64,000 bases of DNA, taken from Anaerococcus vaginalis ATCC 51170. Its GTDB lineage: Bacteria; Bacillota; Clostridia; Tissierellales; Peptoniphilaceae. The stretch spans positions 60,175 to 124,174 of the forward strand of contig NZ_GG700527.1 of assembly GCF_000163295.1 (NCBI RefSeq), written 5' to 3'. The position numbers were made by a program, and so were the translations under genes. The notes beneath the pieces were generated by a model. The model saw only the letters and a list, made by a program, of their open reading frames with translations. It had not been told where the DNA came from and did no database searches. Positions 14,684 to 15,431 of this stretch are shown here, piece by piece (the stretch's first letter is position 1; every line of letters starts with the position of its first letter).

Positions 14684-14726
14684 ATTTTTATCCTTTCTGA
14701 TATAATTATAGCAAAGGAGTAATTAA

Positions 14727-15176
14727 ATGAAAATTAAAAACTTTTTTTATAAATTTATTTTAAGTTTTTTTCTTATTTTTGCTTTTGCTGGATGTGTAAA
14801 GCTTGATGATATTAATTCTAATGAAGCAGTTGAATGTACAAGTCTTCTTGAAGATAAGGCTTATTATAAAAAAGATGATGTAGTTGATTATATTAAGGCT
14901 TATAAAAAACTTCCTCCAAATTTTTTGACAAAAAAAGATGCGAAAAAACTTGGTTGGATTCCTAAGAAAGGAAATTTGTGGGAAGTTACTGATAAGGGTG
15001 TAATTGGCGGAGATTATTTTGGGAATTTTGAAAAAAATTTACCTGATGCAAATTACAAGGAATGTGATGTAAATTATTTTGGTGGAAGACGTGGTGGCGA
15101 AAGACTTATTTATGATGAGGATTTTAATATTTTTTACACCAAAGACCATTACAAAAGTTTTACCAAGGAGAATTAG
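14727..15176 (+). CDS. Barnase-family extracellular ribonuclease (probable lipoprotein)
   Basis: 149-aa guanyl-type RNase. Residues 1-22 are a signal sequence ending FAGC (Cys23), so the enzyme is probably lipid-anchored; the -3 Phe is unusual for a lipobox. Residues 50-147 align with Bacillus barnase: DVVDYIKAYKKLPPNFLTKK, LGWIPKKGNL, DVNY, and DHYKSFTK at the end. Barnase catalytic equivalents present are Lys27 (K69), Glu73 (E112), Arg83 (R122), Arg87 (R126) and His102 (H141). Arg59, which helps guanine recognition and inhibitor binding, is Phe101 here. An extended -10 (TGATATAAT, 14698-14706) and AAGGAG precede it. The barstar-like gene starts on the base after its stop codon. Confidence 0.9.
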   Translation: MKIKNFFYKFILSFFLIFAFAGCVKLDDINSNEAVECTSLLEDKAYYKKDDVVDYIKAYKKLPPNFLTKKDAKKLGWIPKKGNLWEVTDKGVIGGDYFGNFEKNLPDANYKECDVNYFGGRRGGERLIYDEDFNIFYTKDHYKSFTKEN

Positions 15177-15431
15177 ATGATTTGTTTGGATGGAAATAAA
15201 TTTAAGTCAAGGGATGAGGCTTTTTCTTATTTGAATGAAAAAATTGATTTTGAATATGAAGTAAATAATCTTGATGGGCTTTTTGATGAACTTTCTATGC
15301 TTGATGAGAAAATTATTATTAGAAATTATCCTCTTATTTATAAAAATTTGAATGATTATGGAGATAGGCTTTTGTCTTGTTTTATGAAGGCAAGTCTTTG
15401 TTTTGATTTGGAAATTGATTTTCTATCATAG
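15177..15431 (+). CDS. Barstar-like ribonuclease inhibitor
   Basis: 84-aa cytoplasmic inhibitor that would neutralise the upstream RNase before export. It follows the barstar pattern: CLDGNKFKSRDEAFSYL at the start, then NNLDGLFDEL, equivalent to the barnase-contact helix. The key acidic contacts Asp35 and Asp39 of barstar correspond to D33 and D37. Barstar Glu76, which normally pairs with barnase Arg59, aligns with Lys71 without gaps from the C terminus. The ATG directly follows the TAG of the RNase gene, so translation is coupled. Confidence 0.88.
   Translation: MICLDGNKFKSRDEAFSYLNEKIDFEYEVNNLDGLFDELSMLDEKIIIRNYPLIYKNLNDYGDRLLSCFMKASLCFDLEIDFLS

Follow-up and report, generated by a model that had tools for sequence, protein, structure and literature searches.

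A barnase-barstar gene pair in Anaerococcus vaginalis

The window, a stretch of 64,000 nucleotides from Anaerococcus vaginalis ATCC 51170 (genome of 1.89 Mb in 6 contigs), carries on its forward strand two abutting open reading frames that share the same frame and have a TAG codon as their sole separator. The first encodes a barnase-family RNase of 149 aa (positions 14727-15176, + strand) and the second a barstar-family inhibitor of 84 aa (15177-15431, + strand), whose start codon follows immediately after the RNase stop. Each gene is preceded by an AAGGAG ribosome-binding site, as read from the sequence: 14714-14719 (+) for the RNase gene and 15165-15170 (+), within the RNase gene, for the barstar gene, the region from the latter site through the barstar start codon spanning 15165-15179. 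Upstream of the RNase gene lies, on the opposite strand, a gene of the 2-thiouracil desulfurase type (PF04463), and the barstar gene is followed by an ORF that has no hit in Pfam and by an ABC transporter ATPase. The pair is patchily distributed in Anaerococcus: the RNase is present in 16 genomes, including that of the window, and absent from at least 15 of those listed.

The RNase matches PF00545 at 57.8 bits and barnase with an E-value of about 1e-25. Its predicted domain superposes on barnase (1brn) over 105 residues at 0.9 Å with a Z-score of 19.1, which corresponds to the barnase fold over the whole domain. According to phmmer, residue 50 onward aligns with barnase residue 8 onward, gaplessly to at least residue 107 (barnase 65), so that Phe101 (15027-15029) takes the place of barnase Arg59; after this stretch, behind the guanine loop, the RNase has a 3-residue deletion relative to barnase. 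The phmmer and pair alignments together also identify Lys69 (14931-14933) as Lys27, Glu102 (15030-15032) as Glu60 of the guanine-binding loop, Glu112 (15060-15062) as Glu73, Arg122 (15090-15092) as Arg83, Arg126 (15102-15104) as Arg87 and His141 (15147-15149) as His102, all on the + strand. Glu112 and His141 are presumably the catalytic base and the catalytic acid, respectively.

At its N-terminus the RNase has a signal peptide (14727-14795, + strand) with a lipobox-like F-A-G-C motif, in which Cys23 is the predicted site of a lipid anchor. The Phe at -3 lies outside the strict lipobox rule; a congener (L052) has L-T-G-C, and Cys23 is retained in at least 90% of 35 aligned rows. A liberal rule recognises such signals in 159 of the 218 pairs surveyed below, 78 of which also obey the strict rule, and 25 of the 59 pairs outside the liberal rule were inspected, some having a Cys that the rule had missed and others a hydrophobic stretch without Cys. 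The lipid anchoring proposed in the first-pass annotation is plausible from these features, and since lipobox-like signals are so widespread, an anchored RNase looks common in the group and not a novelty of this pair.

The inhibitor scores 25.1 bits against PF01337 (cut-off 23.4 bits), and no signal peptide was seen in its sequence. Its predicted model (pLDDT 97) superposes on barstar (1x1y) over 83 residues at 1.8 Å with a Z-score of 12.5. As a direct query against PDB sequences it gave a best E-value of 0.46, and the match to PDB barstar was reached via a bridging barstar of a relative. In a scan of its genome with the barstar profile A3 (E-value up to 0.1) it is the only match, with 104 bits. 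A search of the same genome with PF01337 returned nothing, which must be a miss because the protein exceeds the Pfam cut-off and is matched so well by profile A3.

Alignment of relatives to PDB barstar identifies Asp33 (15273-15275, + strand) as barstar Asp35 and Asp37 (15285-15287, + strand) as Asp39, whereas Glu76 is replaced by Lys71 (15387-15389, + strand), as placed by a gapless join through relatives to PDB barstar. The ranges of the structural superposition have a one-residue uncertainty toward the C-terminal end of barstar; residues 69-73 read F-M-K-A-S, and hence there is no acid at 76 even if the alignment is shifted by two. The alignments and predicted folds thereby confirm what the first-pass annotation had claimed about the residues, namely that Arg59 and Glu76 are replaced while Lys27, Glu73, Arg83, Arg87, His102, Asp35 and Asp39 are kept. 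That annotation left out Trp38, the other barstar partner of Arg59, which by pair alignment corresponds to Phe36 (15282-15284, + strand) in this inhibitor.

The pair thus resembles barnase and barstar of Bacillus amyloliquefaciens in both folds, in Lys27, in the set Glu73/Arg83/Arg87/His102 and in Asp35 and Asp39, but differs from them in having Phe for Arg59, Phe for Trp38 and Lys for Glu76, as well as in the deletion after the guanine loop, the lipobox-like signal and a shorter barstar loop after position 40. In addition, the two genes are adjacent here, whereas those of B. amyloliquefaciens lie apart. A model of RNase and barstar as one fused chain, read through the TAG, gave two confident domains with no confident arrangement between them (pTM 0.59), and on account of this pTM it was dropped as evidence on the interface. 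With the toxin gene first and the immunity gene next, in stand-alone form, the arrangement is also like that of the Tox-Barnase/Imm-Barstar pairs of PMC3482391; the excerpts of that survey used here make no mention of residue coupling.

Residues 59, 38 and 76 in natural pairs

Neighbouring RNase-barstar pairs were taken from the order to which the window belongs (PF00545 occurs in 64 of its 249 genomes, and all 64 were included), from 80 named loci, being the best 80 of 591, and from five further sets consisting of the loci of best matches; the sample is not random. The 258 records gave 218 distinct pairs after removal of 20 with no recognised barstar, 2 with a barstar that was not adjacent, 2 with no RNase ORF and 16 duplicates. 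Two doubtful rows were retained, L063 (counted as Arg59, with a poorly aligned loop) and L166 (counted as Glu59, probably a deletion). The two genes are spaced by at most 60 bases in 200 of the 218 pairs, and by a distance of 0 or less, as measured by the script, in 79.

Residue 59 is Arg in 119 pairs, Tyr in 73, Phe in 19 and some other residue in 7. Arg59, absent from the RNase in the window, is thus missing from 99 of the 218 pairs and is not defining for the family; by the same count, the changed contact is no peculiarity of this pair. Similarly, Glu76 is not defining for the barstar family, as 38 of the 218 pairs, that of the window among them, have no acid at 76. An acid (Asp or Glu) at this position accompanies Arg59 in 119/119 pairs, so the comparison of both positions across homologous pairs, which the first-pass annotation had proposed, bore out the link between them. 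The corresponding count for all non-Arg pairs is 61/99 (Tyr59, 51/73; Phe59, 4/19; others, 6/7). The acid is Glu in 61 and Asp in 58 of the Arg59 pairs, and Asp in 48 and Glu in 3 of the Tyr59 pairs. Outside Anaerococcus, an acid at 76 occurs with Phe59 in 0/5 and with Tyr59 in 49/71 pairs (Fisher p 0.004, kinship ignored). Across the family, loss of Arg59 permits loss of the acid at 76 but does not require it. Trp38 is present in 85/119 Arg59 pairs, 3/73 Tyr59 pairs and 0/19 Phe59 pairs.

The surrounding residues hardly vary. Among the 211 pairs with Arg, Tyr or Phe at 59, barstar has Asp35 in 210, with Asp (206 pairs) or Glu (5 pairs) at position 39; on the RNase side, Asn58 is found in 211, Glu60 in 210 and Trp35 in 209, with one gap. 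The congeneric RNase L052:2958-3398 has Arg at this otherwise almost invariant Trp35.

A held-out set was obtained from 63 matches that had initially been left out. These gave 59 records with 62 RNase hits, 16 of which had no recognised neighbouring barstar, and 45 new distinct pairs, which were placed on the existing alignment without altering it; their scores are lower, and several have an uncertain assignment at column 59. The acid at 76 was found in 30/30 of the held-out Arg59 pairs and in 7/15 of the non-Arg pairs. Trp38 was kept in 6/15 of the latter, indicating that the coupling of 38 is looser than that of 76.

Two further observations concern the distribution of the pairs. At six loci (L219, L220, L221, L223, L166 and L063) the RNase domain lies in polymorphic-toxin-like ORFs of 439-586 aa with barstar adjacent; four of these have Tyr59, and all four keep Asp76. 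Moreover, two Campylobacter concisus contigs (L110:2396-3171 and L114) carry a Clostridia-like R59/F38/D76 pair, a probable transfer from Firmicutes into the chromosome. The L110 pair is flanked by what we take to be housekeeping-like genes, namely a phosphoribosyltransferase-like and a menaquinone-type ORF.

When mutual information was corrected for background, 59-38 ranked first and 59-76 second among 9,243 inter-protein column pairs. The raw measure put 59-76 only at rank 1,138 of 9,243, and its top rank therefore depends on the correction. Both kept the first two places when sequences were weighted at 60, 70 or 80% identity and when the genus was removed, and with the window's family removed 59-38 took rank 2 and 59-76 rank 1 of 9,009. 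Weighting at 50% identity (effective number 21) lowered 59-76 to fifth place and 59-38 to rank 77, and in 20 half-samples 59-76 ranged from rank 1 to 33 (median 3) and 59-38 from 1 to 5. We also considered whether Lys71 is paired with a new acidic residue of the RNase; the next-best columns for 76 (72, 55, 45 and 70) score far lower, and none suggests such a partner.

Intermediate combinations are found within Anaerococcus itself. In a midpoint-rooted tree comprising 42 pairs from the family of the window, the earliest branch of the genus has Y59/Y38/D76 (L046), followed in the series by Y59/F38/D76 (L048), F59/F38/D76 (L041, L042, L049 and L051), F59/F38/S76 (L043 and L045) and F59/F38/K76, the last in a supported clade of 8 pairs made up of that of the window, L052 and L054-L059. 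The tree requires a minimum of 4 changes at 59 and 3 at 76. Arg59 is missing from all 16 genus pairs and the acid at 76 is still present in 6 of them, so the contact was not rebuilt on both sides in a single step here. Just outside the genus, on a long branch, is a pair with R59/F38/D76 (L030:1217-1944), from which it seems that residue 38 may have changed before 59 in this lineage. A Peptoniphilaceae MAG beside the genus, whose placement is not settled (L103), already has F59/F38/S76, and this calls for either a separate change or another order of events.

Contacts of residue 59 and interpretation of the coupling

Barnase and barstar are a standard model system for protein-protein binding, and Arg59-Glu76 is one of their double-mutant pairs. 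In the excerpts of the literature used here, the side chain of Arg59 is described as contacting Trp38 by a cation-pi interaction and Glu76 by an ionic one (PMC11408511); these two partners are the same two barstar positions that covary with 59. Asp35 holds residue 59 by the backbone nitrogen (PMC4207830), which would explain why this Asp stays whatever the side chain at 59. Likewise in excerpts, the costs of substitution by alanine are given as 5.2 kcal/mol for R59A, 4.5 for D35A and 1.3 for E76A (PMC1913526), the connection between 59 and 76 is described as relatively weak (PMC7830974), and Lys27, Arg59, Arg83 and Arg87 are said to be conserved in Bacillus RNases (PMC8837141).

The reading that we favour, and consider very probable, is that of a low-GC Gram-positive barnase-barstar pair whose unusual contact is part of a triad, 59/38/76, that is evolving throughout the family. 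The RNase would be exported and is probably lipid-anchored; the inhibitor, in the cytoplasm, would plug the active site of the RNase and thereby protect the producer. Its core grip, with residue 39 on Arg83, Arg87 and His102 and Asp35 on the backbone of 59-60, is nearly invariant, leaving the side chain at 59 free to vary between Arg and an aromatic residue. Loss of Arg59 would leave both Trp38 and the acid at 76 without a partner, so that they may drift; Tyr may hold Asp76 through its hydroxyl, which Phe presumably cannot do.

More tentatively, the triad may be a naturally evolving specificity module, in which a hot spot worth about 5 kcal/mol (R59A, in the excerpt of PMC1913526) has often been swapped for an aromatic lid with the inhibitor following stepwise, Tyr keeping Asp76 by its hydroxyl and Phe releasing it, and in which Arg59 and aromatic-59 pairs would inhibit poorly across kinds. 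That the rebuilt patch insulates aromatic-59 from Arg59 pairs, each barstar mainly inhibiting RNases of its own kind, we regard as possible at somewhat less than even chances. The two links of 59 are the most strongly covarying between the proteins, the clade of the window carries the opposite charge at 76, and such an RNase occurs in 51 of the 148 genomes of one family, some with two, all of which would suit insulation. However, Asp76 persists in 48 of the 73 Tyr59 pairs and should still fit Arg59, and with core contacts so nearly invariant cross-inhibition may persist.

The first-pass annotation had also suggested that loss of Arg59, which sits in the guanine-binding loop, may alter the base preference of the RNase. 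This appears unlikely given the constancy of Asn58 and Glu60 noted above. The RNase T1 and RNase Sa families belong to the same Pfam family as barnase and share the guanine loop N-x-E; RNase T1, which is fungal and to our knowledge without a barstar, presumably has an aromatic residue at the place of 59, and RNase Sa presumably Arg40 (placed by profile coordinates, with no gap assumed). We take Tyr45 of RNase T1 as the putative counterpart of barnase Arg59, in the role of an aromatic lid; RNase T1 matches profile A1 only at E 0.23. In the excerpt of PMC9266746, guanine in the guanine-specific RNase T1 is surrounded and held by Asn43, Asn44, Tyr45 and Glu46, among others. An aromatic residue flanked by Asn58 and Glu60, as in RNase T1, argues for a retained guanine preference, and by this analogy residue 59 probably forms an aromatic lid that would still cover the bound guanine.

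It is less likely still that the association of 59 with 76 reflects shared ancestry only, through ancient clades differing by chance at the two sites. The best tree, built without the three columns 59, 38 and 76, implies 25 changes at 59, 27 at 76 and 15 at 38. Letting change at 76 depend on 59 improves the fit over independence by 21.8 log units (likelihood-ratio p 3e-10), and none of 12,482 null simulations gave zero non-acid residues among the Arg59 tips (mean 20.2); the corresponding dependence test for 38 gave p 9e-5. The ranks also hold without the window's family, and the held-out Arg59 pairs follow the rule without exception. What speaks for ancestry is that the proteins are short and the deep branches weak, that ranks fall under heavy down-weighting, and that supported independent pairs are too few for significance: in the strict test, with only 7 pairs on supported branches, 76 changed along with 59 in 2.7 on average and contrary to it in 0.0 (median p 0.25), and 38 changed along with it in 1.1 (median p 1). 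The argument for more than shared ancestry is consequently carried by the likelihood test and the simulations, based on a single best tree of short proteins. The coupling of 59 and 76 is real and family-wide, yet one-way and stepwise. The original interpretation of the contact is thus partly supported: its two sides are coupled beyond chance and, by these tests, beyond ancestry, but in this lineage they did not change simultaneously, the six genus pairs with an acid at 76 all being without Arg59.

Decay of the pair, with an inactive RNase or a non-binding inhibitor and Lys76 as drift, is very improbable. In its favour, this Lys faces Phe with nothing evident to bond to, the inhibitor only just exceeds its Pfam cut-off, and the comparison with the nearest relative gives a dN/dS that is not low (0.53 for the RNase and 0.66 for barstar, on few changes; 0.21 and 0.35 for the other of the 2 nearest). 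Against it, the catalytic residues are all kept, dN/dS is low for the 5 of 7 relatives that are more distant (RNase 0.13-0.24, barstar 0.25-0.29), Phe59 and Lys76 are retained in 8/8 clade pairs, and profile A3 found no other barstar in the genome up to an E-value of 0.1.

Returning to the favoured reading of a triad evolving throughout the family, the coupling that ties 59 to 38 and 76 is a more valuable result than the single pair. Titles and the opening parts of abstracts of the papers listed by searches of the open-licence literature yielded no report of such coupling in natural pairs. Nature here offers a series, R59/F38/D76, Y59/Y38/D76, Y59/F38/D76, F59/F38/D76, F59/F38/S76 and F59/F38/K76, of which only the first lies outside a single genus, and it raises the direct question of how a tight toxin-inhibitor complex swaps a hot-spot residue without losing protection. 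The data suggest stepwise co-evolution of these positions, such that nature seems to have repeated a classic mutation experiment many times.
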